From: Gracilibacillus oryzae
GTDB taxonomy: Bacteria; Bacillota; Bacilli; Bacillales; Amphibacillaceae
Reading direction: 5' to 3'
Length of the DNA stretch: 49,198 nt
Assembly: GCF_009498735.1 (NCBI RefSeq)
Contig: NZ_ML762437.1
Span: forward strand, 1-49,198
The notes under the pieces: model-generated
What the model saw: only the letters and a program-made list of their open reading frames with translations
Database searches by the model: none
Told to the model about the DNA's origin: nothing
Shown here: one piece after another, positions 1-29,906 of the stretch
How positions within the stretch are numbered: position 1 is the stretch's first letter
How the letters are laid out: the number at the start of each line of letters is the position of its first letter
Program-made: the position numbers and the translations under genes

Positions 1-25
1 TTATCGTGGTTGAAAACATTGTATC

Positions 26-190
26 ATGAGGAAAGCTATAATGGCTTTTCTTTTTACACAATTATACTGGCTTAACCGAAAAAATTTCGTGAAGGCATTC
101 AGAAGGAGTCTGAGTGCCATGAGATTCGGAAAAAGTTTCGCCAAGGCATTCGAATACTCTCTCAATTCCATGACACAGCAAAAAATCACA
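26..190. repeat. degenerate ~51-nt repeat pair (array R0)
   Basis: Two related units are seen. The segment around 78-122 and the segment around 129-173 both contain a run of A, then TTTCG, then AAGGCATTC, and end near CCATGA; the TTTCG landmarks are 51 nt apart. The first unit holds the near-palindrome GGCATTCAG/CTGAGTGCC. Short overlapping open frames on both strands are by-products of the repeat. The spacing resembles the 52-nt arrays elsewhere in the window, so this may be a decayed or truncated member. Confidence 0.4.
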
Positions 191-209
191 GCTCATGGTA
201 TTCAGCATG

Positions 210-239
210 TTAACATTTCCTCATTTTTAGTGATATGAT
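210..239 (+). promoter_or_regulatory. putative sigma-A promoter of the AraC-type regulator
   Basis: TTAACA (210-215) and TATGAT (234-239) are separated by 18 bp. They lie about 50 bp upstream of the ATG at 291. The match is good but unsupported by any other evidence. Confidence 0.4.
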
Positions 240-290
240 GGAGACAAATACACGGAAAAAAGAAAGATCTGCAAAAAAGGAGATAATGTC

Positions 291-1145
291 ATGAATACCC
301 TTACACTCAAAAGTTATGAAATTGATCATGAGCTTTTTCGGATAAGGTATGTGAATGAGATGATGTTTAACAAAATGAATAAAACTCATTTTCATACAGG
401 TTATGAATTGTATTATCTGCTGGCAGGTGAGAAGCTTTTTTTCATCAATGATGAGTTGTTTTCCGCAAAAAAAGGCGATATGGTTGTGATCCATCCCTAT
501 GATCTGCACAAAACATCGAGTGTCAAAGGGGTAAAAGCAGAGCGAATTGTTGTTAATTTTAAGTGGAGCTTTATTAAGCAGCATGCCGACATAGAAGATA
601 TGGAAGAAGGTCAGTTCCAACAGATGCCTAACAAGCTGGGGATATCTGTAAAAGAACAATTGCAGGTAGAACGTATTCTGCATGAAATGGTGCGCGAGTG
701 TGAAGGTAAACCGCAGCAATACCGAGCATTCATTCAATCTTTGTTAATGATGCTATTGATCATTATTAACAGAAACAAAGTGAATGAAGGCACTGCCAGT
801 AAGGGTACGGCAAGCATGACAGACAACAAAATGTTAGAGGTGGCGTCTTATATCAGCAAAAATTATCAGCACAACCTTACATTGAAAGAGATTGCCAATC
901 AATATTATTTGAGTCCGAGTTATTTGAGCAGGACTTTTAAAAAAGTTACTGGCTTTAATGTGAGCGAATACATTCAGCTTGTCAGAATAAGAGAAGCTCA
1001 GAAATTGTTACGGGACACAGACCTGAAAATTATTGAGATTGCTGATTTCGTTGGTTTTGCGCAAATCGCCCATTTTAATAAAGTGTTTAAGAAGTTGACC
1101 AATACTTCTCCATTGAAATTCAGGCAGGCGGAGAAAACAAAATAA
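291..1145 (+). CDS. AraC family transcriptional regulator
   Basis: This 284-aa protein has the usual two-domain AraC build. Residues about 15-110 look like a cupin-type effector-binding domain (HFHTGYELYYLLAGE near the start). Residues about 185-280 form two helix-turn-helix motifs (LTLKEIANQYYLSPSYLSRTFKK and a second near IIEIADFVGFAQIAHFNKVF). The ATG at 291 follows a good AAGGAGA ribosome binding site. The gene downstream encodes a sugar-type solute-binding lipoprotein, and AraC regulators often control neighbouring sugar uptake genes, so that is the most likely target. This is an inference; the ligand cannot be read from the sequence. Confidence 0.9.
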   Translation: MNTLTLKSYEIDHELFRIRYVNEMMFNKMNKTHFHTGYELYYLLAGEKLFFINDELFSAKKGDMVVIHPYDLHKTSSVKGVKAERIVVNFKWSFIKQHADIEDMEEGQFQQMPNKLGISVKEQLQVERILHEMVRECEGKPQQYRAFIQSLLMMLLIIINRNKVNEGTASKGTASMTDNKMLEVASYISKNYQHNLTLKEIANQYYLSPSYLSRTFKKVTGFNVSEYIQLVRIREAQKLLRDTDLKIIEIADFVGFAQIAHFNKVFKKLTNTSPLKFRQAEKTK

Positions 1146-1148
1146 GAC

Positions 1149-1181
1149 AAAAAACACAAGCAAACCTGTTTGTGTTTTTTT
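1149..1181 (+). terminator. intrinsic terminator after the AraC-type gene
   Basis: The arms AAAAAACACAA and TTGTGTTTTTT enclose a short loop and run into a T tract. Confidence 0.8.
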
Positions 1182-1210
1182 AATGACAGATAAGAAAGCA
1201 TAAACGGAGA

Positions 1211-1329
1211 TGTCTAGCTCCAAGCGCCTGCCCCTCGAGGTCTTAAGCGATCCTGCTATGTGGCAAAGATCGCCACGTCGCAGTTTCGCTTAAGCTTGTC
1301 GGGGCAGAACGGGCGCTTTGCGCTTTTCT
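1211..1329. repeat. Bacillaceae-type structured palindromic repeat element
   Basis: The element folds back on itself through several nested arms: GCGCC (1224-1228) with GGGCGC (1311-1316), CTGCCCC (1228-1234) with GGGGCAG (1301-1307), and CTTAAGCGA (1242-1250) with TCGCTTAAG (1286-1294), plus an inner TGGC/GCCA pair. It starts with TGTCTAGCTCCA, which I recall as the start of a high-copy intergenic repeat in Bacillus and relatives. There is no coding content. Whether it acts as an RNA or as a small mobile element is unknown. Confidence 0.75.
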
Positions 1330-1413
1330 AAACAGGTGCAAAATAAGCAAAGGTACTCAGAATAGAGCATGATCGTATAAAGAATTATGAAGAAAGCTTT
1401 TATAAAATAAACT

Positions 1414-1427
1414 TGTAAACGCTTTCT
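1414..1427 (+). promoter_or_regulatory. cre box (CcpA operator)
   Basis: TGTAAACGCTTTCT matches the Bacillus cre consensus TGWAARCGYTWWCW at every position. It lies just downstream of a TATAAAAT -10-like box (1401-1408), near the expected transcription start and about 50 bp before the lipoprotein gene. That position implies carbon catabolite repression. Confidence 0.75.
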
Positions 1428-1474
1428 GAGAAAAGCTGATTAGAGAAATGAAAAACAAAAAAGGGTGTGAATGC

Positions 1475-2998
1475 ATGAGAAAATTAGTGTTTTTTCTATT
1501 TGTAAGTGTGTTTTGTTTGTTTTTGGTGGGGTGTAATGAAGAATCAGCATCCAATAACAGCGGGGAAGAAGCAGGTGGTGAAACAGAAACAGAAACAAAT
1601 GAATCAGGACAGTCAGAAGAACAGGAAGAACCTTTTGAATTATCTGTTATGTTAAATTTGCATACACCAGAAGTCCCGACTGACAAATTGGAAGTGCTGT
1701 TAGAAGAGGGATCAAATACAGAGCTGGATATTCAGTGGATTCCGGACGGCAACTATGAAGAAAGAGTGAATACAGCATTTTCTACCAATACATTGCCACA
1801 AGCATTTTTAGTTAAAACCGCTCAATTTGTACAATTTAAAGATGCAATCAGAGATGACCAGTTTTGGGAGATTGGCCCGTATTTAGAGGAATTCGAAAAC
1901 TTAAGTAAATTAAGAGAAGGAACATTGAAAAATTCGGAAGTGGATGGCAAATTATATTCCTTATACATGGGCCGTCCATTATCCAGATCAGGGCTGATTT
2001 ACCGTAAAGACTGGGCAGATAATTTAGGATTGGAGGCGCCAACAACAACGGATGAGTTTTATGAAATGCTGCGTGCCTTCACGGAAGATGACCCTGATGG
2101 AAACGGACAGGATGATACGATTGGATTAACGGACAGAGGAAATCTAGGCACATTTAACACAGTATCAACATGGTTTGGTACACCAAACAGATGGGGAGAA
2201 AAAGATGGCGAGCTCCTGCCTGAATTCATGTTCCCTGAATATAAACAAACATTGGATTTCTTCCGCGACATTCACAGCAATGGTTATATGAACAAAGATG
2301 CGCCTGTAACGAGTAAAACAGATCAGCAGGAAATGATGAAAAACGGAAAAGCTGGTGTCTATATTGGATCAATGCAGGACGTTCTTGGTATCAATAAAGA
2401 TGCAGAAGTCATTAATCCTGATGTGGAATTTGATGTGCACAACAATGTCGCAGGTCCGCATGGTGAATTTGGCGTCCGCTCGATCCCTGGTTATGGAAGT
2501 TTGATTATGTTCCCGAAAGCTGCGATTAAATCAGAAGAAGAATTAAAAAATGTATTATCATTTTTTGATTATCTGATGTCTCCAGAAGGTGCAAATCTAT
2601 TAATCTGGGGTGTGGAAGGCGAGCATTATGAAGTAGTCGACGGGAAAGCAAAAATATTGGATGAGGATAAACACGATCAGGAAATTAAGCCATATACTTC
2701 ATTCGAAATTGGAGAACCATCAACCAATGGCCGATATGAAGCATTTTATGATTATGCCCCAGCACAAAAAGCGATTGATCTATACAAAGATAATGATAAT
2801 TATGTAGTAGACGATCCAACCGTAGGACGTGAATCGGAAACATATACACAAAATGCAGGATCGCTTGACCAGATTATCACAGATGCAACGTATCAATATA
2901 TTCTTAGGGAAATTGACGAAGCAGGCTTTGATGCAGCGATTGAGGACTGGAAAGAAGCAGGCGGGAATGACGTGATTGAAGAGTATAATAATCAATAG
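1475..2998 (+). CDS. extracellular solute-binding lipoprotein (family 1, LplA-like)
   Basis: The product is a lipid-anchored substrate-binding protein of the ABC sugar/oligosaccharide importer type, about 507 aa. I prefer the ATG at 1475 over the in-frame ATG at 1448 because AAGGGTG precedes it at good spacing and it gives a clean signal peptide ending in the lipobox LVGC (Cys20). An acidic, Ser/Glu-rich linker follows, then the large two-lobed binding domain. The DDPDGNGQDDTIGLT segment resembles the EF-hand-like calcium loop common in LplA-type proteins. The permease and ATPase genes that normally accompany such proteins are absent, and a terminator follows directly. The cre box upstream predicts repression by preferred sugars. 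Confidence 0.85.
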   Translation: MRKLVFFLFVSVFCLFLVGCNEESASNNSGEEAGGETETETNESGQSEEQEEPFELSVMLNLHTPEVPTDKLEVLLEEGSNTELDIQWIPDGNYEERVNTAFSTNTLPQAFLVKTAQFVQFKDAIRDDQFWEIGPYLEEFENLSKLREGTLKNSEVDGKLYSLYMGRPLSRSGLIYRKDWADNLGLEAPTTTDEFYEMLRAFTEDDPDGNGQDDTIGLTDRGNLGTFNTVSTWFGTPNRWGEKDGELLPEFMFPEYKQTLDFFRDIHSNGYMNKDAPVTSKTDQQEMMKNGKAGVYIGSMQDVLGINKDAEVINPDVEFDVHNNVAGPHGEFGVRSIPGYGSLIMFPKAAIKSEEELKNVLSFFDYLMSPEGANLLIWGVEGEHYEVVDGKAKILDEDKHDQEIKPYTSFEIGEPSTNGRYEAFYDYAPAQKAIDLYKDNDNYVVDDPTVGRESETYTQNAGSLDQIITDATYQYILREIDEAGFDAAIEDWKEAGGNDVIEEYNNQ

Positions 2999-3040
2999 AT
3001 AGTTTGGAATAGTTCACATGGATTAGAGCTGTATTCCAAG

Positions 3041-3090
3041 ACAGAAAAGCTGGTCAGCCCTCACTAAGGGAAGATCAGCTTTTTTCTGTT
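3041..3090 (+). terminator. intrinsic terminator after the solute-binding protein gene
   Basis: ACAGAAAAGCTGGTC (3041-3055) pairs with GATCAGCTTTTTTCTGT (3073-3089), with an embedded T run. Confidence 0.75.
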
Positions 3091-3260
3091 ACCTTTTTAG
3101 TGGGAAAAATGGCTTCAAAATCCCCGCATGATGCGGAAAAAGACAAACTGTAACAAATTTCAAAAAAAATCTACTAAAATCTACTATTATCTTTCTATTT
3201 GAAGAAAAATATAGTAAAATTAAATCAGTTAATCATTTTAGAGAAAAGAAAGGGAAACGA

Positions 3261-4433
3261 ATGCGATATTCAGAGAAATACGCAAATCTAGCAAACGAAG
3301 AAAAACGAACAACTATCTGGTTTTTGTGGTTGTTTTACGGAATTTTCTTTCTTTATGATTTCTTTTATTTTTATCTATCAGTACATTTTACAGATAGCCT
3401 TTATAATGGGGAGAAGAGTAGTTTTCCAGTTTACATCGTCTTACTAATTTTAATTCCAATTATGATCTATCTCATTCGTAATGGCAAAACACAAAAGGTA
3501 AAATACTTACTTTTCTTTGTATTTACCACTGTGAATATTATTACAGAGATAATTTATTATTCGGGTAACGATGTTACATACAGAAGTGGAAATATAGCAG
3601 AAATTGTTATTGTTTTATTTTCTCCTATTTTTGTCAATATATCTTTCTTCTATCTGGTGTCAATAGGGACTCTAGTGAAGTATTTTATCGTTGGCCTGTT
3701 TTTATGGGAACCTGTAGCTATTTTGCCTGCTATCGTTACCATTATTTTGGTGATTGTGGCAAGTATTATTCTTTACCGCTTTATCGCATATGTAAGAGCA
3801 ATTGAAAAATCCTATGATAACCAGTTAGAAGGAATTGTAAAAGGGGTAATTGCAACACTGGAATTGAAGGACCCCTACACAAAAGGACATAGCGAGAGAG
3901 TCGCAGGATATGCAAGGTTACTAGCGAATTCTACCAAGCAATTTAAAGAGGAAGAATTAAAATCATTTTACTATGCATGTCTTTTACACGATGTTGGGAA
4001 AGTGCATATTCCTGATCATATTTTGACAAAAAAAGGCAGACTGACAGAAGAAGAATTTGAGATCATTAAAGAACATCCGACTGTCGGTGCAGAAGCTGTG
4101 CAAAATGTGGAAGGAATTGCTGAATATATAGATGTAATAGAGCATCACCACGAACGATGGGATGGCAATGGTTATCCCCACCGTTTACAAGGTGAACAAA
4201 TATCATTATTAACAAGGATTACTTCAGTGGCAGATGCGTTTGACGCGATGACATCCTCCAGATCTTATCGTGCAGCATTGCCATTAGAGGTGGCCTATCA
4301 ACGAATTGTTGATGGTAGCGGTACTCAATTTGACCCTGACATAGTAAAACAGTTTGTAGAAATCTATCCACAATGGGTCGAGTTTCATAATAAATATAAT
4401 AAGGATAGAGGTGAACTTAATGAAAATTCGTAA
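3261..4433 (+). CDS. membrane HD-GYP domain protein (putative cyclic-di-GMP phosphodiesterase)
   Basis: This 390-aa protein has about five or six hydrophobic segments (residues about 18-40, 55-72, 81-100, 112-133, 137-148 and 152-175), a short linker, and a cytoplasmic HD-GYP domain from about residue 185. The HD pair is at 243-244 (LLHDVGKVHIP), followed by HHERWDGNGYP with the GYP signature at 304-306 and the DAFDAM helix near 325. HD-GYP enzymes hydrolyse cyclic di-GMP. No known sensory domain is apparent, so the membrane part may itself sense a ligand. The last 14 nt overlap the start of a small peptide gene, which suggests translational coupling and a functional link to the peptide and the M50 protease downstream. 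Confidence 0.88.
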   Translation: MRYSEKYANLANEEKRTTIWFLWLFYGIFFLYDFFYFYLSVHFTDSLYNGEKSSFPVYIVLLILIPIMIYLIRNGKTQKVKYLLFFVFTTVNIITEIIYYSGNDVTYRSGNIAEIVIVLFSPIFVNISFFYLVSIGTLVKYFIVGLFLWEPVAILPAIVTIILVIVASIILYRFIAYVRAIEKSYDNQLEGIVKGVIATLELKDPYTKGHSERVAGYARLLANSTKQFKEEELKSFYYACLLHDVGKVHIPDHILTKKGRLTEEEFEIIKEHPTVGAEAVQNVEGIAEYIDVIEHHHERWDGNGYPHRLQGEQISLLTRITSVADAFDAMTSSRSYRAALPLEVAYQRIVDGSGTQFDPDIVKQFVEIYPQWVEFHNKYNKDRGELNENS

Positions 4434-4488
4434 ATTAAAAAAGACAAAGACAACTTGCTGGTGGTGCATTTTCGGAAGCTGGAAATAA
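4420..4488 (+). CDS. small basic peptide with CWWC core (candidate RiPP or pheromone precursor)
   Basis: This is a 22-codon gene with an excellent ribosome binding site (AGAGGTGA, about 6 nt before the ATG), overlapping the end of the HD-GYP gene in another frame. The first ten residues carry six Lys/Arg; the rest reads TTCWWCIFGSWK, with two Cys and three Trp. It has no hydrophobic signal peptide. The next gene encodes a PqqD-like domain fused to a membrane M50 protease, and PqqD-type domains bind leader peptides of ribosomally made, modified peptides. I infer that this peptide is the substrate. The alternative is that it is an attenuator leader peptide, because a hairpin follows 9 nt after its stop codon. 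I do not recognise the family. Confidence 0.6.
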   Translation: MKIRKLKKTKTTCWWCIFGSWK

Positions 4489-4497
4489 GTTGTCGCA

Positions 4498-4522
4498 GGT
4501 AGTTTCCGAACTACCTTTTTTT
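4498..4522 (+). terminator. terminator or attenuator between peptide and M50 protease genes
   Basis: GGTAGTT (4498-4504) and AACTACC (4509-4515) form a perfect stem with loop TCCG, followed by seven T. It sits between the peptide stop codon and the protease gene, so it would set the ratio of peptide to protease transcript. TTCCGAA (4504-4510), within the hairpin, can instead pair with TTCGGAA (4471-4477) inside the peptide gene. Confidence 0.8.
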
Positions 4523-4548
4523 ATGCAAATAATCAGTAGGTGATACAA

Positions 4549-5730
4549 ATGATTTCACATAATTCTAATATAACCCTCTATCCACTCACAATACGACAAG
4601 ACAAAAAGCATTATATTGTAGAAGACAAAACTTCTGGTGAATTTTTCGAAATGCCGAAAATTTGTATTGATGCCATTGAATTAATCAATGACAAGGTGCC
4701 GCTAGAGGAAATCGAAAAAACACTTCAGGCGAAGTATCCGGAAGAAGAAGTGGATATTCTGGAATTTGCCGAACAGCTGCTTGATTTTGGTTTGGTAAAA
4801 GAGATTGACGGAGAAGAAGTGAAACAAGAGAAATCCAATGCTGCTGCCCAAGGGTTTTCCTGGCTGCCGGCAAATGTTGGACGCTTCTTTTTTCATCGTG
4901 GAACAAAGATCATCCTATTTCTTGTTATTTTAATGAATATATTTTATATGATCATGAAGCCGGACTTTTTCCCGAACTACCAGGATATATTTGTTTTTGA
5001 CTCGATTGTCTTGAGTGTACTTTTTTATATGTTTATTTCTCTGTTCCTCATTCTCATCCACGAATTTGGGCATATTCTCGCAATAAGGGCACACAACCTT
5101 CCGACAAAATTAGAGGTGGGCCATCGTCTTTATTTGCTGGTAGTGTTTGAGACAGATATGACTGCTGGCTGGAAGCTGAAGCCAAAAGAGCGCAACCTTT
5201 TATATTTAGGCGGCATTTATTTTGACCAGTGGATTGTAGCCATTGTCCTTACTCTGAAATTCTTCCTGCCGATAGATGGGACGTTTGTTGATGCTGTTTT
5301 ATCGCTTATTGTGCTGGACATTTTTATCAAAACAATCTATCAATGCTGTTTTTATATGAAAACAGATTTATATTATCTGTTTGAAAATATCACAGGCTGC
5401 TATAACATTATGGAAAATAGCCAGCGCTTATTCAGCAGATGGCTGCCATTTGTGAAAACAGACAATAAGACAGAAGCATATGAAGAAGAAAAAGTATACG
5501 TCCGATTATATGCCGTATTCTACGTATTAGGGATCTCCGTTACACTGGCCTTATTCGCTTTTTATATGGTACCACAATTCTTTTTTGTCTTTTCCAGACT
5601 GATTCCTGCACTGATCTCACCATCTGGAAACCCGTACTTCTGGGATGCAGTTGTCTTTTTATTGCAACTATTAATTATGATTGGATTATTGCTGTATACA
5701 TGGACGAAATCGCATAGCAATAAGGAATAA
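4549..5730 (+). CDS. PqqD-like domain fused to membrane M50 (site-2-type) metalloprotease
   Basis: I choose the ATG at 4549 (393 aa) because AGGTGAT lies 6 nt upstream; an in-frame GTG at 4540 is the alternative. Residues about 5-95 resemble PqqD, a small winged-helix domain that binds precursor peptides. Several membrane segments follow, with the zinc motif HEFGH at 171-175 inside a hydrophobic helix and a later MKTDLYYLFEN segment whose Asp273 is the likely third ligand. The fold resembles YydH-type M50 proteases found beside modified-peptide genes. I infer that it processes and/or exports the upstream CWWC peptide. No radical SAM or other modifying enzyme is adjacent, and a strong terminator follows. 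Confidence 0.8.
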   Translation: MISHNSNITLYPLTIRQDKKHYIVEDKTSGEFFEMPKICIDAIELINDKVPLEEIEKTLQAKYPEEEVDILEFAEQLLDFGLVKEIDGEEVKQEKSNAAAQGFSWLPANVGRFFFHRGTKIILFLVILMNIFYMIMKPDFFPNYQDIFVFDSIVLSVLFYMFISLFLILIHEFGHILAIRAHNLPTKLEVGHRLYLLVVFETDMTAGWKLKPKERNLLYLGGIYFDQWIVAIVLTLKFFLPIDGTFVDAVLSLIVLDIFIKTIYQCCFYMKTDLYYLFENITGCYNIMENSQRLFSRWLPFVKTDNKTEAYEEEKVYVRLYAVFYVLGISVTLALFAFYMVPQFFFVFSRLIPALISPSGNPYFWDAVVFLLQLLIMIGLLLYTWTKSHSNKE

Positions 5731-5736
5731 TTCATT

Positions 5737-5779
5737 AACAAAATGCTTTGCAGAGCGACTTCTGCAAGGCATTTTTGTT
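5737..5779 (+). terminator. intrinsic terminator after the M50 protease gene
   Basis: AACAAAATGCTTTGCAG pairs with CTGCAAGGCATTTTTGTT (one bulge or mismatch), giving a long stem that ends in a T-rich arm. Confidence 0.85.
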
Positions 5780-5821
5780 ATCAAAATGAAACCTAACTTG
5801 GCTCTGTTCGTCTATAGAAGT

Positions 5822-5971
5822 GAGTGTTCAAAAAATCAGCAAATTTGAAGCAAGAAGGTCGAGGCGGTGCAGTGAGGAGCATCGGAACGTATTGTTTGAA
5901 TACGTGAGAAGCGGACTCACAAACCAACGAAGAGATTCGCTGCTTATCATTTGGTGACTTTTTGAACATCC
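5822..5971. repeat. dispersed inverted-repeat element, full copy (A)
   Basis: A ~150-nt non-coding element. Its ends are inverted copies: GTGTTCAAAAAATCAGCAAAT at the left and ATTTGGTGACTTTTTGAACA at the right. The interior includes AACGTATT/AATACGT pairing. A much shorter relative sits at 25053-25097. I recall similar elements scattered in Bacillaceae genomes. It looks like a small non-autonomous mobile element or a structured RNA; nothing in the window identifies a transposase for it. Confidence 0.7.
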
Positions 5972-6002
5972 TTTTTAAGTAAAGATAATAAAGGATGATA
6001 AT

Positions 6003-6794
6003 ATGAAAAAATTCCTGACAATATTGGGCATCATGCTATTTCTAACAGCTTGTGGAACAAGTGAAAATACTCCGGCAATTGATCAAGAGGAAGCTTACCA
6101 ATTTCATCATCAAGAGGATGGAATGGAGCTTACGGCGGAGATTACAGTTGGTGAAACAATCAAGGTAAGTGCAGCCTTGGAGAATGTAAGTGATCAGCCA
6201 ATCATTTATAATGGAAGGTGCGGCATACCTTTTCAGATTTTTGTGCAAATGAATGGCAGCAATGCAACGCTTCAAAATAAGAAGCAAACCGCACCAAAAG
6301 AATGTACAGATATCTTTGATCCTAATGATTTAGAAGAATTTGCGGCAGGTGAGACAATAGAGAAGAATGTTTCCTATATTAGAAAATTTTCACTTCATGG
6401 GGAAAATCTCCAGGCTCACAACGGAGAGTATAAGATCCATTTTTTCTTCCATTCCCATGATGGAGATAACATCACAGCTGACTATCCATTTACATTAATA
6501 AACCAGGATGAGCCGGATATCTTAACAATCGAACAAGCGAAAGCAATGGCATTAGAATATGAAAAAACAGCAGAGTGGTATGAAAAACAGCAAGAAAAAG
6601 GATTAACGATAAAAGCAGAGGAAGCGATTTTGTCATCAAGCGGCTGGCATCTGCCATTTCAGGCGATGGATGATACATTTGTTCACAGAGTCATTGTTGG
6701 CGTCAATTATGAATCTGGTAAAATTGTAGATTATCATACCGAAAAGATAGAACGAAAATATTGGGAGGATGCGACAAGCACAACCCAGGATTAA
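6003..6794 (+). CDS. lipoprotein with BsuPI-like beta domain and PepSY-like C-terminus
   Basis: This 263-aa protein begins with a signal peptide and lipobox LTAC (Cys17), so it should be anchored outside the membrane. Residues about 30-170 form a beta-rich region with LENVSDQPIIYNGRCG, similar in style to BsuPI/immunoglobulin-like proteinase inhibitor domains. The C-terminal part (LTIEQAKAMALEYEKT, then a GVNYESGKIVDY segment) resembles a PepSY-like module. Both domain calls are by eye. It is followed by the helicase gene after 29 nt, and no function is evident. Confidence 0.7.
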   Translation: MKKFLTILGIMLFLTACGTSENTPAIDQEEAYQFHHQEDGMELTAEITVGETIKVSAALENVSDQPIIYNGRCGIPFQIFVQMNGSNATLQNKKQTAPKECTDIFDPNDLEEFAAGETIEKNVSYIRKFSLHGENLQAHNGEYKIHFFFHSHDGDNITADYPFTLINQDEPDILTIEQAKAMALEYEKTAEWYEKQQEKGLTIKAEEAILSSSGWHLPFQAMDDTFVHRVIVGVNYESGKIVDYHTEKIERKYWEDATSTTQD

Positions 6795-6823
6795 AACAGC
6801 TGGCTAGAAAGTGAGGTTTTCCA

Positions 6824-9490
6824 ATGAAAGGTTTCCCTGAAGGCATTCAATTTTGTTTCCCGTGGCGCAGTTATCAGGCAGAGGTACTGCGCCATCTGGA
6901 CAAACATTTAGCAAATCAGCACTTGCACCTTGTAGCCCCGCCAGGTTCGGGGAAAACGGTTCTAGGTTTGGAAGTGATCAGAAGGCTCAATAAACCAACC
7001 TTGATCGTTGCCCCGACGCTTGCGATCCGCAATCAGTGGGCCGATCGTTTTACAGCGCTTTTTCTACAGCAAAAGGAACAGCCTGACTGGATTTCAACAG
7101 ATATAAAGAACCCATCTTTCCTAACGATTACAACATACCAAGGCTTATATGCTCTGTTTCAAGATACCTTGGAGCAGCAGGAAGAATCAGAGCTTGATGA
7201 TCTGGAAGAAGAAGAAATGCCTCTCGAAAATGATGCAAAACAGAAAGCAATCGAACGGCTTTTTCAGCAAAACTTCCAGACACTTGTATTAGATGAAGCC
7301 CATCATCTGCGCACAAATTGGTGGAAAACAACGATACATATCCGAAATCAGTTGGAAAATCCCAGCATTATTGCCCTAACCGCAACCCCGCCTTATGATG
7401 TCGGAAAGGCAGAGTGGGATAAGTATATGGAGTTGTGTGGTCCAATTGATGAAGAAATCGAAATAGCGGCACTAGTGAAAGAAGGGGATTTATGCCCGCA
7501 TCAGGACTATGTCTGGATGTCTGCCCCTGCGCCAAAGGAACAGGAACCGATCGATACTTTTCACAAAGAAGCCGAGCAGATCAGAACAGAACTATTGGAA
7601 AACAAGGCCTTCCAATCATTAGTGGATAATCATCCTTGGATAGCATCAGAGGCGTTCGTTGAGGAGAAACTGGCAAACTATCGCTATTTTATCAGTATGA
7701 TTGTTTATTTGAAGGAAATTGGCAGTCCTGCCTGGGAAAAACCATTTGAAGTAATGGAAGAAAAAGCAGCGGCACTTCCTTCCTTTGACCTGGAATGGAC
7801 AGAGGAACTGTTAAGTTTCTTCATTTATCAGGATAAACATACAGATCCGAAAGAAGAGCCGATCGAATCAATAAAAAAGCAGTTAACTGCGATAAGGGCA
7901 ATTGAACGAAGAAGAGTGAAGCTGATTGCGACACGATCGATGCAACGAAAATTATTACAAAGCAGTTCGAAGCTGGATAGTATTGCAGACATCGTAAGGC
8001 TGGAAAAAAAGGCACAAAAAGAGAAGCTGCGCCTAGTAGTGTTAGCAGATTATATTTATAAAGAAGATCTGCCTCAAGCTGGCGAAGAAAATAAACCGCT
8101 GATTCGCTTAGGTGTTGTGCCGATTTTTGAAAAACTAAGAAGAAATGTTGCTAATCAATGCCGTCTAGGTGTTCTGACAGGATCTGTCGTCATTGTTCCC
8201 AACCAGGCCATTTCCTTATTGGAAAAGTCTGCATTGGAATTCACTGCTGAAAAACTGGAACATGATGATCGTTACAGCTTGATTAGATGGAAAGGTACAT
8301 CACGGCAGGAAATGGTAAAAGTGATGACAGACATTTTCGATCATGGCGAAATTGATGTGTTAATCGGAACAACGGCCTTACTTGGAGAAGGATGGGATGC
8401 ACCTTGTGTGAACACACTCATTCTTGCTTCCTATGTTGGCAGCTTTATGTTAACAAACCAAATGCGTGGACGTGCCATCAGATCAGAGCAGGGTAATCAG
8501 GACAAGGCAGCAAATATCTGGCACCTTGTTTGTGTGGATACTTACGCATTGGATGGCGGCTATGATTATCAGTCATTATCACGCCGCTTTCAGTCACTGA
8601 CAGGAGTGGATGCAGAGCTTCCTGTGATTCAATCAGGCATCGACAGATTACGAATGGCCAAACCTCTCTTTAGACAAAAAACAATCCTTGAAACGAATCA
8701 GCTGATGGCCGAGAGAGCGACAGAAAGAACAAGACTTCACGAGCGATGGCAGGAAGCTGTCCAAAAAGGGGAAAAGAAAAGAGAAGAGATCGAAGTCAGC
8801 ACGAGCCAACTGCCGCCGATTTTTATGTTCCGTAATACACTGAAATCATTACTCCTTATTTGTGGTGCCATTTTTCTCAACGTGCTGTATGCTGTTGGTG
8901 AATATGGCTATTATTACGAATCATTCGCCGCCATCCGCTCAGCATTGATCTGGGGTTTTGTGATAGGTGTTGTTATTTCAAGCCCTTTCTGGTGGCGGGC
9001 ATTACGAATTTTCCTGTTCCATTCCTCGCTTGAATCAAGGCTGAAGCAAGTAACAGAAATTGTCTACAAAACCATGTTCGAAATCGGCTTATTAGAGACA
9101 CCCCTGAAAGAAAACAAGATTATCATCAATAAAGGGGGAGGAGGCAGTTTGTACGGTTATCTGGAGAATGGCAGCACAGAAGAACAAAAACTTTTCCTCC
9201 AGGCAGTGCAGCAATTGCTCGATCCGATCGATAATCCAAGATACTTACTTCATCGTCAGTCAGGCAAGCGTTTGTGGGTGCGCCATGACTATCATGCAGT
9301 TCCAGAAGAAATCGGCCGCAAAAAAGAATATGCAGAGATTTTTGCGAAAAAATGGAACAAACGAATGGGAAAAGCTGAAATGATTTTTACCAGAACTCCT
9401 GAAGGAAGAAAAGTACTGTTAAAAGCAAGATTGCGTGCGATGTCTGCTAAGTTTATGAAGCGGTCAGAGCGGAGGAGTGTTTGGAAGTGA
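6824..9490 (+). CDS. DEAD/DEAH-box superfamily 2 helicase with C-terminal membrane segments
   Basis: This 888-aa protein has a superfamily 2 helicase core. Walker A APPGSGKT lies at about residues 38-45, the Walker B box DEAH is followed by HHLR near 157-163, motif III-like ALTATPP follows, and the C-terminal lobe has GTTALLGEGWDAP and the arginine-finger region MRGRAIRSEQG. Unusually, two strongly hydrophobic stretches lie near residues 672-690 and 703-720 (LLLICGAIFLNVLYAV and SALIWGFVIGVVIS), followed by about 160 soluble residues, so the protein may be membrane-bound. The start follows a GTGAGG-type site. The substrate is unknown; genome defence or RNA/DNA handling at the membrane are both possible. 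Confidence 0.8.
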   Translation: MKGFPEGIQFCFPWRSYQAEVLRHLDKHLANQHLHLVAPPGSGKTVLGLEVIRRLNKPTLIVAPTLAIRNQWADRFTALFLQQKEQPDWISTDIKNPSFLTITTYQGLYALFQDTLEQQEESELDDLEEEEMPLENDAKQKAIERLFQQNFQTLVLDEAHHLRTNWWKTTIHIRNQLENPSIIALTATPPYDVGKAEWDKYMELCGPIDEEIEIAALVKEGDLCPHQDYVWMSAPAPKEQEPIDTFHKEAEQIRTELLENKAFQSLVDNHPWIASEAFVEEKLANYRYFISMIVYLKEIGSPAWEKPFEVMEEKAAALPSFDLEWTEELLSFFIYQDKHTDPKEEPIESIKKQLTAIRAIERRRVKLIATRSMQRKLLQSSSKLDSIADIVRLEKKAQKEKLRLVVLADYIYKEDLPQAGEENKPLIRLGVVPIFEKLRRNVANQCRLGVLTGSVVIVPNQAISLLEKSALEFTAEKLEHDDRYSLIRWKGTSRQEMVKVMTDIFDHGEIDVLIGTTALLGEGWDAPCVNTLILASYVGSFMLTNQMRGRAIRSEQGNQDKAANIWHLVCVDTYALDGGYDYQSLSRRFQSLTGVDAELPVIQSGIDRLRMAKPLFRQKTILETNQLMAERATERTRLHERWQEAVQKGEKKREEIEVSTSQLPPIFMFRNTLKSLLLICGAIFLNVLYAVGEYGYYYESFAAIRSALIWGFVIGVVISSPFWWRALRIFLFHSSLESRLKQVTEIVYKTMFEIGLLETPLKENKIIINKGGGGSLYGYLENGSTEEQKLFLQAVQQLLDPIDNPRYLLHRQSGKRLWVRHDYHAVPEEIGRKKEYAEIFAKKWNKRMGKAEMIFTRTPEGRKVLLKARLRAMSAKFMKRSERRSVWK

Positions 9491-9606
9491 GTGCTAACTC
9501 GAGTTAATAAAGCTTCGTGTATTCTATTATTTTTGTTTACCAAACCAAAAAAAGGGAAATGTTTTATATAGCAACATTTCAAATGAAGAAAGGATTGGAT
9601 ATCAAG

Positions 9607-11034
9607 ATGTATAACTACACGAAACATTTTATAAATGGTGAATGGGTTGAGTCAACAGGCAGTGAAACAATTGATGTCATCAATCCAGCGACAGAAGAAA
9701 AAATCGGCGAAATCAGTTCAGGTACAGAAGAAGATGTAGATAGAGCTGTCAAAGCAGCAAGAGCGGCTTTTCCTTCCTTTTCACAAACATCAAAAGAGGA
9801 AAGAGTCCAACTATTAGAAAATATTGCGAATGAATATGAAAAACGAAAAGACGATTTTATTAAAATTATCACAGCAGAGCTTGGTTCTCCTGTAACATTT
9901 ACAGAAGAAGTACAATATACGATGGGGTTAAATCACTTTAAAGCCGCAGCCAAAATACTTCGTGATTTCGAATTTACGGAAAGAAGAGAAAATTCCTATA
10001 TTCAAAAGGATGCGATTGGTGTCGCGGGATTAATCACACCATGGAATTTCCCGACAAATCAGATTTCCACTAAACTGGCAAGTGCCCTTGCATCAGGCAG
10101 TACGGTCGTTTTCAAACCTGCATCCAAAACACCAATTGCTTCTGTTTTACTTACAGAAGTAATGGAAAAAGCAGGTGTACCAAAAGGTGTCGTCAACTTG
10201 GTAAATGGGAAAGGTTCAGAAGTTGGGGATGCGATTAGTTCCCACCCTGATATTGACTTTGTATCGTTCACGGGTTCTGGCGCAGTCGGTAAAAAGTTGA
10301 TGCAAAATGCGGCAGAAGATATTAAAAAAGTTGCACTTGAGCTAGGCGGCAAATCTCCAATAGTTGTACTTGATGATACCGAGGTGGAGACAGCTGCCAG
10401 AACGGCGATTTCCAAAGTGGCGTCAAATACAGGGCAAATCTGTTCAACAGGTACACGAATTTTTATTCCAAAAGCTATGCACGATGATTTTGTGGAAGCC
10501 GTCAAAAAACTGGTGGATGAATATCCTATCGGTGATCCGCAAGATAAAAATACCTTCACAGGCCCGCAGGTTTCAAAAGACCAGTGGGAAAAGGTGCAGG
10601 ATTATATCCAGCAGGGCATTGACAGCGGAGCGGAATTAATCGTCGGCGGAAAAGGCAAACCAGAAGGACTAGACAAAGGTTATTATTCACGCATCACGAT
10701 GTTCACAAATGTGGATCACAACAGTAAGATCGCCCAGGAAGAAATTTTCGGACCTGTCATGACAGTGTTCACATATGAAACAATCGATGAAGCAATCGAA
10801 CTTGCGAACGATGTTATCTATGGACTGGCTGGCTTTGTTGTCGGAAAAGATCCTGACAAGCTGGCAAAAGTGGCTAAAAGCATCCGCGCAGGCCGAATTA
10901 CCATTAACGACAGTGCCCCTGACTTTACAGCACCATTCGGCGGATTCAAACAGTCAGGTATCGGCCGCGAGTGGGGCGACTACGGTATCGAAGAATTCTT
11001 AGAACCGAAGACGATTTTAGGAATGCCAAAATAG
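9607..11034 (+). CDS. aldehyde dehydrogenase family protein
   Basis: This NAD(P)-dependent aldehyde dehydrogenase is 475 aa from the ATG at 9607, which matches the usual start of the family (YTKHFINGEW). Longer frames from upstream starts lack family similarity. Motifs seen are PWNFP, the nucleotide-binding FTGSGAVGKK, the catalytic Glu in LELGGKSP, the catalytic Cys in NTGQICSTGTR, and the C-terminal GGFKQSGIGREWG. The substrate cannot be assigned. It appears monocistronic, with a hairpin just after the stop codon and a 52-nt repeat array beyond. Confidence 0.92.
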   Translation: MYNYTKHFINGEWVESTGSETIDVINPATEEKIGEISSGTEEDVDRAVKAARAAFPSFSQTSKEERVQLLENIANEYEKRKDDFIKIITAELGSPVTFTEEVQYTMGLNHFKAAAKILRDFEFTERRENSYIQKDAIGVAGLITPWNFPTNQISTKLASALASGSTVVFKPASKTPIASVLLTEVMEKAGVPKGVVNLVNGKGSEVGDAISSHPDIDFVSFTGSGAVGKKLMQNAAEDIKKVALELGGKSPIVVLDDTEVETAARTAISKVASNTGQICSTGTRIFIPKAMHDDFVEAVKKLVDEYPIGDPQDKNTFTGPQVSKDQWEKVQDYIQQGIDSGAELIVGGKGKPEGLDKGYYSRITMFTNVDHNSKIAQEEIFGPVMTVFTYETIDEAIELANDVIYGLAGFVVGKDPDKLAKVAKSIRAGRITINDSAPDFTAPFGGFKQSGIGREWGDYGIEEFLEPKTILGMPK

Positions 11035-11043
11035 TGAGATGAT

Positions 11044-11078
11044 GGGTGTATGGAGTGTTGCTCTGTACACCTTTTTTT
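11044..11078 (+). terminator. probable terminator after the aldehyde dehydrogenase gene
   Basis: GGTGTA and TACACC arms with a 15-nt loop are followed by a run of seven T. Confidence 0.55.
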
Positions 11079-11138
11079 GTTGAAGATGGAAAAGAAGGGC
11101 AGAGGAAGTTTAATAAACAAAACACAGAATTTTTGGCG

Positions 11139-11420
11139 GATATTTGTCGATAAAGTGGAGATAATCGACAAATCATGGAGGGGTTAATGGAAGATTTGTC
11201 GATTAAATGAAGATAAAGAACAAATCTCAGTGGAGTGGAGGGAAGATTTGTCGATTAAATGAAGATAAAGAACAAATCCCAGAGGAGTATAGGGAAGATT
11301 TGTCGATTAAATGAAGATAAAGAACAAATCCCTGTGGAGTAGAGGACAGATTTGTTGATAAAACAAAGATAAAGGACAAATCATCGTGTGTAAGAGAAAG
11401 ATTTGTTCATAAAAATTGCG
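11139..11420. repeat. 52-nt tandem repeat array R1
   Basis: Five full units and a partial sixth are seen. Unit starts (GATTTGT or equivalent) fall at 11141, 11193, 11245, 11297, 11349 and 11400. Each unit has arms GATTTGT (unit positions 1-7) and ACAAATC (28-34) around an AT-rich middle, then an 18-nt purine-rich spacer. The array occupies the gap between the converging aldehyde dehydrogenase and codA genes. No open frame or conserved protein is seen. Confidence 0.9.
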
Positions 11421-11471
11421 CCCCTCCAACCATCAACTCTGATCATCTTTTCAAAAAACATAATCCTCCGA

Positions 11472-11503
11472 ACAAAAAAAGATAGAGCCTCAGGCCCTAT
11501 CTC
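11472..11503 (-). terminator. intrinsic terminator of codBA
   Basis: On the minus strand AGATAGGGCC and GGCTCTATCT form a stem with a 3-nt loop, followed by a T run. It overlaps the codA stop codon. Confidence 0.75.
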
Positions 11504-12756
11504 TCGAAATCAATCACTTCTTCTTGATCACTAATCATTATCTGTGTTTCTCTTGGCTTCGAATCAACGATTTTCTTCCCATTGCGATAGGAAGCAAGTA
11601 CTTCTGCCTGTTTGCGAACGGCGTCATACTCATTCGTTGCATTTAAGACAATAAAATTCGCCGGCTTGCCGACTTCGATGCCGTATTGATCCTGAATATT
11701 CAGCGTAATCGCACTATTTTTCGTAATAAAATCAAACGAATCGATAATCTGGTTATAGCCCATTAATTGGGTCACATGGATTCCCATATGAAGAACCTGC
11801 AGCATGTTGCCTGTTCCAAGTGGATACCATGGATCAAAGATGTCGTCATGCCCGAAACATACATTCAATCCAGCTTCGCTCAATTCCTTCACGCGTGTAA
11901 TCCCGCGACGTTTCGGATAATCATCAAAGCGGCCCTGCAAATGAATGTTTACCAATGGATTTGCGACAAAGTTAATCTGAGACAATCCAAGCAGCTTCAT
12001 TAACTTAGAAACATAGGCACTGTTATAAGAATGCATCGCCGTTGTATGGCTTGCCGTTACTTTGCTGCCTAATCCGCGTTTATAAGCTTCCGCTGCTACC
12101 ACTTCGACAAAGCGGGACTGCTCGTCATCAATTTCATCACAGTGAATGTCAACTAAGCGGTCATATTTTTCAGCTAAATCAAAGGCAATTTTCATTGATT
12201 CCACACCATCTTCGCGAGTGAATTCAAAGTGCGGGATCCCGCCAACAACGTCTGCGCCCATTTTCAACGCTTCTTCCACTAACGAAGCGCCATTTGGAAA
12301 AGATAAGTATCCGTCTTGAGGAAATGCGACTAATTGCAGATCAACATAATCCTTTAATTCTTCCTTCACTTCCAACCATGCTTTCATCGCAGTAAGGGAA
12401 GGGTCACAGACATCAACATGTGTGCGGACATGCTGAATCCCTTGTGCAATCTGCCATTTCAATGCTTTTGTTGCACGGGTTTTGACATCTTCTACTGTTA
12501 AAGACTTTTTGCGTTCTGCCCAAGTAGAGATTCCTTCAAATAACGTTCCACTTTCGTTCCATTTCGGTTCACCGGCTGTCAATGTTGTATCAAGGTGAAC
12601 ATGTGGTTCAATGAAAGGTGCGCTGACTAATTTCCCTTTTACATCGATTGCACCATCGACAGCTTGTGCTTTTTCTATTTTGGTAAAAACGCCATTTTCA
12701 ATATGAATGTTGAAGAGACCTTCTTGTTTTGCTAGTGATGCGTTTTGTATTATCAA
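11497..12756 (-). CDS. codA: cytosine deaminase
   Basis: The enzyme converts cytosine to uracil and ammonia for pyrimidine salvage. This 419-aa amidohydrolase shows the metal-binding HVHLD near residue 52, HCDEIDDEQ near 203, HTTAMHS near 237, and [18 protein letters not shown] near 310, a signature of CodA-type deaminases. It lies 3 nt downstream of the permease gene codB in one transcription unit, and the pair is governed by a PyrR attenuator. Isoguanine or creatinine deaminase activity occurs in relatives, but the permease and PyrR context favour cytosine. Confidence 0.93.
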
Positions 12757-12759
12757 ACT

Positions 12760-14013
12760 TTATACCTCTTTTCCCAGCTCCAGGCTTTTTTCTGTTGCGG
12801 GCACTCTATCTGTAAGAAGTGCCAACACTACATATATCACAACAGCGCCGATAATTCCATTCAAAGGGGCGATCCCTGGTAAAAATTGTGCTGCAGCAAA
12901 TCCGCCTGCCCATGCCAGAATTGCCGGCCAGCGTACTGCCTGGAAGCTCATTTCTTCAAGCTTAGAATAGTTTCCTTTTTTCATAATAAAGTAATCTGCT
13001 AATAAAATTGCGCCAATTGGAGGCAATGCTCCGCCTAAAAGTGTTAACCAGCTGACAAAGTTGTTGTATAACCACATTGCCAGGATTGTTCCGACAATTC
13101 CATTAAAGATAACTACTTTGCTTTTTTTGATTTTTGTAATATTGGAAAAACCCAAGCCTGATGCATATAACGAGTTGTCATTGGTTGTCCAGATGTTCAA
13201 TCCAAGCACGATAATCGCTGGTACAATCAATCCCTGCATGAACATCACTTCTGAGATGTCGCCGAGTCCAGTTGAAATTGCGCCAACTGCTCCGAACAGG
13301 AACATTAGTGAGTTTCCGATAAAAAAGGCGATCAATGTTGTAATAACGGCTGTTTTCTTTGTTTTTGCAAAACGGGCAAAGTCAGGAGTTAATGTTCCGC
13401 CACTGGCAAATGACCCGACACAGATTGTTAAAGCTGCTGCCAAGCCAATCGTTGCTTCCGGCTCATATGCGAATAATCCGGACAAACCGCCAAGGTCGTC
13501 TACCGCAATTCCTACTGAAATACTTCCCAAAATCGCAATTGCTGGTACGGCGATAAAACTCAAGATAGCTAGTGCCTTCATTCCGAAAAATGCCGAGCAT
13601 GTCATCACAATCCCTGACACGATAATTAATGTTGTCATATCAATGCCAGTTACTTTGTTGACTGGGACTGCGAACATCGCCAATCCTACACCAAACCAGC
13701 CGACTTGTGTTGCCCCTAACAAGAATGAAGCAAGATAAGAGCCTTTTTCCCCGAATGCATAGCGTGCTAACAAGTGTGTGGACAAGCCTGTTTTTGCAGC
13801 AACATAAGCGAGGCCCCCAGTATATAATCCTAAAATTAAGTTACCAAGTAACACCATCCAGATGATTTCCTGCATGGAGAGGCCAAGTCCCAATTCTCCG
13901 CCTGATAGCATACTTGCAGAGAAGAATGTAAAACCTAACATAACAACAAACATCTTCCAAAAACCATTTCTATGTGATTGCGGTACTGCTTGCAGTGAAA
14001 ATTCTTTATCCAT
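12760..14013 (-). CDS. codB: cytosine permease (NCS1 family)
   Basis: This 417-aa integral membrane protein has about twelve hydrophobic segments. It carries NCS1/CodB features such as GFTFFSASMLSGGELGLGL near the N-terminus, GATQVGWFGVGLAMFAVPV, and the LNIWTTNDNSLYASGLGFSN stretch around residue 275. It imports cytosine for the deaminase encoded directly downstream. A long leader (14014-14264) separates the promoter from the start codon and holds the PyrR-responsive attenuator. Confidence 0.93.
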   Translation of the reverse strand: MDKEFSLQAVPQSHRNGFWKMFVVMLGFTFFSASMLSGGELGLGLSMQEIIWMVLLGNLILGLYTGGLAYVAAKTGLSTHLLARYAFGEKGSYLASFLLGATQVGWFGVGLAMFAVPVNKVTGIDMTTLIIVSGIVMTCSAFFGMKALAILSFIAVPAIAILGSISVGIAVDDLGGLSGLFAYEPEATIGLAAALTICVGSFASGGTLTPDFARFAKTKKTAVITTLIAFFIGNSLMFLFGAVGAISTGLGDISEVMFMQGLIVPAIIVLGLNIWTTNDNSLYASGLGFSNITKIKKSKVVIFNGIVGTILAMWLYNNFVSWLTLLGGALPPIGAILLADYFIMKKGNYSKLEEMSFQAVRWPAILAWAGGFAAAQFLPGIAPLNGIIGAVVIYVVLALLTDRVPATEKSLELGKEV

Positions 14014-25138: not shown

Positions 25139-26119
25139 GTGCGTAAAGTAAAAATAACAGGAATGGGAAAATACTTGCCAAAAGCAATCGTCCATTCTGA
25201 TGAGATTGATAGATTACTAGCAGTAGAACCAGGATGGACGAAAAAGAAATCTGGTGTCGAAAAAAGACATTATGCGAAAAGCGAAACAGCATCTGATATG
25301 GGAGCAGAAGCAGTAAAAAAAGCGCTCCAAAATGCTGACACTACATTGGACGAAATCGATGCGATTATCTGCACAAGCGGGACAATGGAACAGCCAATCC
25401 CATGCACAGCTTCCCTTATTCATAAAAAACTGGCACCAGCCCGGCCAATTCCAGCATTTGATATTAATTCGACATGCTTAAGTTTTGTGACAGGATTCGA
25501 CTTAATCTCACATGCAGTCGCCAACGGTACCTATAAAAAAGTGGTCATCGTCGCAAGCGAAATCGCATCAGTCGGGTTAAATCGGGAACAAAAAGAAAGC
25601 TACGTACTGTTTGGTGACGCAGCGGCCGCCTGTGTTGTCGAAACAGCAGATGAGGAAACAACAGGAATCCTCGCAGCGAAAATGGAAACATACAGTGAAG
25701 GTGCCCATTTAACAGAAATACGCGGTGGCGGAACAAAATATCACCCCAATTTTCACCATAACGAGCAGGATTTTTTATTCGATATGGATGGCCAGAAAGT
25801 TTTCCGGATGAGTTCCAAAGTAATCAATCCTTTTGTTGATGAATTATTACAAGAAGCAGACCTCTCCATCAAGGATCTCAAAGCAGTTGTTCCACATCAG
25901 GCGAGCGGGATGGCGATGCGATTGTTACAGAAAAAGTTAGGGATCCCATCATCACAATTCATTAATGTAATAGAAAACTATGGCAATACCATCGCTGCAT
26001 CGATTCCATTAGCATTATGTGACGCAATTGAATCAGGAAAAATTCAGCGCGGAGATCATGTGATGCTGCTCGGAACTTCAGCAGGGCTCTCGCTTGGAGG
26101 AATGATCTTTGTCTATTAA
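25139..26119 (+). CDS. ketoacyl-ACP synthase III-like (FabH/OleA superfamily) enzyme
   Basis: This 326-aa thiolase-fold condensing enzyme carries the full triad: Cys113 (NSTCLSF), His253 (VPHQASG) and Asn283 (NYGNTIAAS). It starts at a GTG preceded by AGGAT. FabH-type enzymes join an acyl-CoA to malonyl-ACP; OleA-type relatives join two acyl chains. The setting is not the fab locus but a six-gene operon with reductase and ligase genes, so a role in a specialised acyl-derived metabolite is more likely than housekeeping fatty acid synthesis. Its end overlaps the next start by 11 nt. Confidence 0.88.
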   Translation: MRKVKITGMGKYLPKAIVHSDEIDRLLAVEPGWTKKKSGVEKRHYAKSETASDMGAEAVKKALQNADTTLDEIDAIICTSGTMEQPIPCTASLIHKKLAPARPIPAFDINSTCLSFVTGFDLISHAVANGTYKKVVIVASEIASVGLNREQKESYVLFGDAAAACVVETADEETTGILAAKMETYSEGAHLTEIRGGGTKYHPNFHHNEQDFLFDMDGQKVFRMSSKVINPFVDELLQEADLSIKDLKAVVPHQASGMAMRLLQKKLGIPSSQFINVIENYGNTIAASIPLALCDAIESGKIQRGDHVMLLGTSAGLSLGGMIFVY

Positions 26120-27245: not shown

Positions 27246-27250
27246 AAAAA

Positions 27251-29893: not shown

Positions 29894-29906
29894 GGTGGGG
29901 ACAGAG

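Follow-up and report, generated by a model that had tools for sequence, protein, structure and literature searches.

A CWWC micropeptide gene linked to MASE12-HD-GYP and RRE-M50 protease genes: a candidate peptide-signalling cassette of Bacillales

The window analysed here, a 49,198-nucleotide stretch of Gracilibacillus oryzae (contig NZ_ML762437.1, positions 1 to 49,198; contig C14 of G000, host genome 4.63 Mb), encodes a cassette of three genes: a membrane HD-GYP protein with a MASE12 domain, a 22-codon peptide with a Cys-Trp-Trp-Cys (CWWC) core, and a membrane M50 metalloprotease bearing a leader-binding (RRE) domain. That the cassette is real and protein-coding is virtually certain, given its strict linkage across genomes and its coding conservation, both described below. 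The peptide is probably the substrate of the protease. We give about an even chance to the further proposal that the trio is a self-contained peptide-signalling cassette, in which the mature peptide is a signal acting on the MASE12-HD-GYP protein. A first-pass annotation of the window, made from the nucleotide sequence, had described the small gene with its ribosome-binding site, its overlap of 14 nt with the HD-GYP gene (4420-4433) and the PqqD-M50 gene that follows; re-reading the open reading frames (ORFs) of the window gave the same arrangement:

3261..4433, + strand: MASE12-HD-GYP ORF, 390 amino acids (aa), candidate receptor/effector, assigned by Pfam
4420..4488, + strand: CWWC precursor peptide gene, 22 codons, 69 nt including the stop; MKIRKLKKTKTTCWWCIFGSWK
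4497..4522, + strand: hairpin and T-run past the peptide stop; AGGTAGTT-TCCG-AACTACCT-TTTTTT
4549..5730 (ATG), + strand: ORF for an RRE (PqqD-like)-M50 site-2-type membrane metalloprotease, with HEFGH at residues 171-175 and a conserved Asp273; alternative GTG start at 4540

The peptide ORF is preceded by AGAGGTGAACTTA, with AGAGGTG in front of the start, and encodes a basic leader, MKIRKLKKTKTT, followed by CWWC and the tail IFGSWK. No Rfam family reached its gathering score in positions 1-14000 of the window, and sigma-70-like promoters numbered 12 where chance predicts 10.9.

Linkage of the three genes

The protease was used to search 61 relatives (21 matched) and the GTDB species collection (35 loci, 15 genera); the best named match of the window protease is that of Gracilibacillus ureilyticus (73%). 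All 35 named loci carry, directly before the protease gene, a micro-ORF of the form MKIRKLxKxKxT-CWWC-tail, with CFWC in place of CWWC at L042 and CYWC at L045. Two loci from the search of 61 relatives lack the micro-ORF (L019 and L021), and these are a distant relative at 25% identity and a fragment. HD-GYP, CWWC peptide and M50 genes are all present in each of the 36 loci formed by the named records and the window, at an HD-GYP-to-peptide spacing of -29 to +35 nt. Among ORF families of at least 90 aa, counted up to 6 kb on each side of these loci, only HD-GYP and M50 are universal. The two next-commonest families occur in 8/36 loci each. A small membrane GGDEF protein belongs to the first, which lies mostly just 5' of the HD-GYP gene, and an ABC-type ATPase, variously placed, belongs to the second. 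Among ORFs of this size the 36 loci share no modifying enzyme, in keeping with the absence that the first-pass annotation had noted in the window.

Because the named loci had been found through the protease, a peptide-pattern search and a protease-profile search were run independently of each other over one set of 397 genomes from the order to which the window belongs, the profile being scored on up to four first-look candidates per genome. The strict peptide DNA pattern matches 41 of the 397 genomes, one copy per genome, and its reversed control matches one. The match in G419, which reads CCWC, appears to be fortuitous, and the remaining 40 genomes all have a protease ortholog. The protease profile matches 60 genomes, which fall into two groups, 43 scoring at least 389 bits and 17 scoring 55-262 bits. 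When read directly, the three ortholog genomes missed by the pattern were found to carry a peptide with a slightly different leader; thus, peptide and protease ortholog coincide in 43/43 genomes. The HD-GYP gene precedes the peptide in all 43 as well. A scripted scan recovered HD-GYP before and M50 after the peptide in 41 of them, and in the other two (G319 and G056) the script found the HD-GYP gene, and the protease-profile search the M50 gene at its expected place. The earlier expectations of a conserved CWWC frame upstream of PqqD-M50 genes and of a co-occurring HD-GYP gene are borne out in this sample of the order. PqqD-M50 loci devoid of the small frame, which had been named as evidence that would count against the system, do not occur among the orthologs, and the peptide-free relatives form a separate group.

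Outside the order, a class sample (329 genomes) contains orthologs in three genomes, all with the peptide, and a phylum sample (329 genomes) gave no match at E 1e-30 except the window itself. A phage origin of the cassette was considered and rejected, since the phage search returned no match and no PHROG matches the protease; the HD-GYP protein has only weak HD-domain matches in PHROGs and PADLOC. Matches were found in 27 plasmid records, those listed having less than 30% identity. In G001 (L020/L022, G001:C52), the HD-GYP gene is in three pieces, the peptide is devoid of the usual leader and the protease is present as fragments; the three parts of this cassette have decayed together.

Properties of the peptide, protease and HD-GYP protein

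Codon analysis was performed on 35 of the 36 peptide sequences, that of L033 being dropped for a two-residue insertion. The ratio of nonsynonymous to synonymous polymorphism (pN/pS) is 0.147 for codons 2-16 (leader and CWWC) and 0.76 for tail codons 17-20, and most nucleotide variation in the 16 core codons falls on third positions (entropy averages 0.33, 0.19 and 0.89 bits at positions 1, 2 and 3). The leader and CWWC are under strong purifying selection, and the tail hardly so. K2, L6 and T12 of the leader are present in 35/35 sequences, and I3, K5 and K10 in 34/35. The 67 distinct sequences contain CWWC in 65 cases and CFWC and CYWC in one each (the search pattern demands both Cys and the second Trp), with Thr directly before the core in 64. 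They are 18-25 residues long, with a leader net charge of +3 to +6 and a tail of 2-9 residues. Phe, Trp, Pro, Gly, Ile and Arg/Lys are frequent in the tails. No NCBIfam model matches either of the two peptides tested, and no secretion signal was recognised in the peptide by eye. The core may contain a disulfide, or a modifying enzyme may act in trans.

The hairpin that follows the peptide gene has GGATGC/GCATCC arms in 59/67 distinct sequences, and 63/67 align with it, sharing at least 9 of its 12 arm letters. Among these, changes at two positions preserve pairing: pair 3 is A-T in 54, G-T in 6 and G-C in 3, and pair 6 is C-G in 54, T-G in 6 and T-A in 3. In the window and its nearest relative both arms are switched, to GGTAGTT with AACTACC or GACTACC. 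The distance from stop to hairpin is 1-75 nt. A scan of 12 genomes placed the long form of the motif at this locus in 4 and at other sites in 2; being nearly locus-specific, it is not a common repeat. The window region folds only slightly better than its shuffles (z -1.65; 13/200 fold equally well). The stretch that follows the stem is T-rich (median 5 of 8), which points to a terminator, and the hairpin is likely a partial terminator between the peptide and protease genes; for a plain terminator, a stem sequence kept across genera and nearly unique to one locus is unusual.

The window protease scores below the Pfam cut-offs for both of its domains (M50, 16.8 vs. 27.2 bits; PqqD, PF05402, 13.0 vs. 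23.4 bits, E 0.13), and 6 of 27 protease members match PF05402 at E of 1 or less (best, 4.9e-4). Nevertheless, the RRE and M50 assignments are made because the predicted structure supports both, with a winged-helix PqqD/RRE fold joined to a site-2 protease fold, in which the HExxH motif and an Asp zinc ligand are placed in membrane helices; the fusion proposed in the first-pass annotation is thus upheld by the model. A PDB sequence search gave nothing credible. H171, E172, H175 and D273 are present in 73/73 distinct orthologs and 20/20 distant relatives, and E25, Q76, M270, E279 and Y285 are characteristic of the orthologs (71-73 of 73), with other residues at these positions in the distant relatives. 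In a modelled read-through fusion, leader residues 1-10 are predicted to form a strand (mean predicted local distance difference test score 78), and residues 15-42 score below 50. Two further candidates were dropped. Cys266-Cys267, beside Asp273, had been considered an invariant clade-specific pair for thiol exchange with the peptide, but these residues are conserved in 59/73 and 63/73 orthologs; their invariance in the first 27 sequences was selection bias, because one fetching pattern was YQCCFYMK. Charge complementarity between the leader and the RRE proved not to be specific.

The lower-scoring group of RRE-M50 proteins was read at 17 loci (L094-L110), which lie in the following genomes:

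L094-L110: G141, G198, G125, G071, G248, G265, G378, G371
L094-L110, continued: G112, G221, G323, G073, G053, G366, G291, G178

Each of these loci has, by eye, a protein of about 380 aa adjoining or one to two genes off, and this neighbour is E1/ThiF-MoeB-like in 6/6 tested. All 17 loci were scanned and none has a CWWC peptide. Several lie near helix-turn-helix regulators (by eye), and no precursor was recognised; the group resembles an additional, uncharacterised peptide system.

The product of the first gene has Pfam matches to MASE12 (116.8 bits) and HD_5 (126.1 bits) well above cut-off. MASE12 comprises six predicted helices, the last of which continues into the HD-GYP cyclic di-GMP (c-di-GMP) phosphodiesterase domain, identified by HD and GYP motifs, metal-binding His/Asp residues and a predicted HD-GYP fold. 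The MASE12 helices have no fold match among the matches listed, which HD-GYP matches fill, and this is not evidence for a new fold. In a survey of the 397 order genomes (up to eight first-look candidates scored per genome), MASE12 was found in 52, comprising 42 of the 43 cassette genomes and 10 of the 354 others. In the 43rd cassette genome (G099) the contig begins inside the HD-GYP gene. The MASE12 proteins of all 10 peptide-free genomes were read and are histidine kinases by motif, none being HD-GYP; MASE12-HD-GYP is therefore seen only with the peptide in this sample. In 23 of these 42 cassette genomes another MASE12 gene is present no more than about 3 kb away, and all 23 were read; one is HD-GYP and 22 are histidine kinases by motif:

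Second MASE12 gene a kinase: G199, G374, G119, G055, G148, G158, G175, G185, G257, G272, G279
Second MASE12 gene a kinase, continued: G382, G383, G394, G413, L048, G401, G421, G362, G249, G313, G224

A MASE12 tree does not cleanly separate the HD-GYP and kinase forms, the best split grouping all 70 HD-GYP proteins with 14 of 26 kinases. The window genome encodes a single MASE12 kinase, on a different contig (L112, G000:C6). Whether or not a genome has the peptide, its MASE12 histidine kinases may occur singly or in tandem (L162 in G360:C56, L112 and L151-L160). G086 (L169, G086:C1:618500-624500) has two tandem MASE12-HD-GYP genes before one CWWC peptide and protease. In 6/35 loci (L032, L037, L038, L039, L047 and L053) the HD-GYP gene is directly preceded by one for a small membrane protein with a GGDEF motif (213-227 aa), the two forming a possible pair for c-di-GMP synthesis and breakdown.

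Proposed mechanism and alternative explanations

In the mechanism that we propose, the micro-ORF would yield a precursor whose basic leader, MKIRKLxKxKxT, docks as a beta-strand on the protease's RRE domain. Cutting would take place within the membrane, presumably near the Thr-Cys junction, and would free a short peptide (CWWC plus 2-9 residues), probably outward and possibly with a Cys-Cys disulfide. The six-helix MASE12 domain of the HD-GYP protein, together with that of histidine kinases encoded nearby in many species, would sense the product, and sensing would alter c-di-GMP breakdown. Cleavage and release, a disulfide, and sensing by the HD-GYP protein with a change in c-di-GMP had been suggested in the first-pass annotation and are inferences here too. 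The hairpin would probably hold peptide transcripts above protease transcripts. The linkage of the genes and the variability of the tail are compatible with a peptide pheromone. Two outputs on one sensor domain around a peptide gene are what a receptor would be expected to look like, but from the 10 peptide-free MASE12 kinases it is clear that the domain is not confined to the CWWC peptide. A bolder form of the proposal is tentative, and we judge it somewhat improbable: that a c-di-GMP phosphodiesterase of the membrane would here, for the first time, directly sense a secreted ribosomal peptide, with the peptide, its RRE-guided intramembrane maturase and the receptor-effector encoded together, MASE12 a new peptide-sensing membrane domain of both HD-GYP proteins and kinases, and one pheromone setting c-di-GMP and a phosphorelay together.

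Tandem Trp codons before a terminator-type hairpin occur in trp leader peptides. The Trp-Trp codons of the CWWC gene, followed by a hairpin with a T-run, resemble these, so that the peptide might be an inert leader-peptide attenuator, in which ribosome stalling at tandem Trp (or Cys) codons and the hairpin govern protease expression. Conservation that spans the whole leader rather than the Trp codons alone, replacement of the first Trp by Phe or Tyr in 2/67 sequences, and a variable stop-to-hairpin distance make this very improbable. The same linkage data would also fit a peptide that acts at full length, as an intracellular or membrane small-protein regulator that binds the MASE12-HD-GYP protein, and that the RRE-M50 protease switches off and degrades by regulated intramembrane proteolysis, with no secreted signal. 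Such a regulator accords with the lack of a secretion signal by eye, with there being no transporter family at more than 8/36 loci, and with the restriction of the HD-GYP form of MASE12 to genomes with the peptide in our sample. We nonetheless consider it unlikely, because the near-free drift of the tail resembles a specificity tail more than a fixed binding surface, and an RRE on the protease resembles maturation, as for the daptide protease (PMC10036551, excerpt), more than degradation.

Maturation by the protease is shared by another explanation, by which the peptide would be an antimicrobial or a peptide-derived cofactor and the HD-GYP protein would merely regulate its production. M50 proteases mature the epipeptide, pearlins and daptide (PMC10885120 and PMC10036551, excerpts), and the CWWC peptide is basic and Trp-rich. 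We regard this role as less probable still than that of an intracellular regulator, although well ahead of attenuation: no immunity, transporter or modifying family occurs at more than 8/36 loci (ORFs of at least 90 aa), the peptide is single-copy per genome by pattern, CWWC is retained across genera within the limits set by the search pattern, and MASE12 kinases cluster at the locus.

If the signalling proposal is true, Bacillales would have a peptide channel into c-di-GMP, the orphan membrane sensor domain MASE12 would gain a ligand class, and the cassette would represent a minimal system for maturing peptides, its RRE operating without an adjoining modifying enzyme. Because the peptide is so short, gene callers likely overlook it, and a widespread gene may be unannotated.

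Elsewhere in the window, a dispersed repeat lies at about 5822-5990 (core 5874-5891); its core, GAGGAGCATCGGAACGTA, occurs 27 times in the host's own genome at up to one mismatch (reversed control, 0), with some copies about 159 bases apart. A same-strand gene run at 25139-31217 has, by eye, the look of a small biosynthetic cluster, its genes resembling those for ketoacyl synthase III, ATP-grasp, epimerase, metallo-hydrolase, short-chain dehydrogenase and adenylate-forming enzymes.

Comparison with known systems

The daptide protease MpaP/DapP (PF02163; NCBIfam NF041824) is an RRE fused to an intramembrane peptidase that removes the leader (PMC10036551, excerpt). The window protease likewise combines an RRE with a membrane peptidase and matches NF041824, but at 21.9 bits against a cut-off of 300. 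Unlike the daptide system, the aminotransferase, decarboxylase, methyltransferase and DUF-RRE are not conserved at the 36 CWWC loci, and the precursor is of different sequence (by eye). The epipeptide YydF/EpeX of Bacillus subtilis has a short precursor and a membrane M50 protease, YydH/EpeP, thought to cut and release it (PMC7026026 and PMC10885120, excerpts). The CWWC system resembles it in pairing a short Bacillales precursor with a membrane M50 protease, a likeness of organisation rather than one drawn from sequence comparison. It differs in that a radical SAM epimerase is not conserved at the 36 loci (a statement about the locus, not the rest of the genome), and in its HD-GYP partner and CWWC core. 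Neither an HD-GYP partner nor a CWWC precursor is described for daptide or epipeptide in the excerpts of these sources (PMC10036551, PMC10885120 and PMC7026026).

The closest sequence relatives found are the RRE-E1(ThiF/MoeB-like)-M50 sets of Bacilli, which share the RRE, HExxH and Asp architecture. They differ in their lower full-length matches (164-262 bits, vs. at least 389 for orthologs), in the E1-like neighbour, in the lack of a CWWC peptide, and in the residues at protease positions 25, 76, 270, 279 and 285.

In RpfG-type HD-GYP signalling, a fatty-acid signal is linked to c-di-GMP breakdown through a separate kinase. The CWWC cassette would resemble it in linking a proposed cell-cell signal to HD-GYP c-di-GMP breakdown, and differs in having sensor helices and HD-GYP in one protein and an adjoining gene that encodes a peptide. 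In ComX-ComQ-ComP and AgrD-AgrB-AgrC, a single locus encodes a tiny precursor, of which the processing part is conserved and the tail varies, together with its membrane maturase and a multi-helix membrane receptor. The CWWC locus similarly holds a tiny precursor with a variable tail, a candidate membrane maturase and a candidate multi-helix receptor. Here, in contrast, the maturase candidate is an RRE-metalloprotease, and the output of the receptor candidate is an HD-GYP phosphodiesterase, not a histidine kinase alone. Because only the HD-GYP and M50 families recur at the 36 loci, no AgrB/ComQ-type maturase is conserved there, although no search with AgrB/ComQ models was made; AgrB is also treated in PMC10885120 (excerpt).

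No description of the combination of CWWC peptide, MASE12-HD-GYP protein and RRE-M50 protease was found in the open PMC literature. Maturation of peptides by RRE-peptidases or M50 proteases is already known from daptide and epipeptide; with its candidate membrane receptor, the cassette has a fair chance of being a new kind of signalling system.

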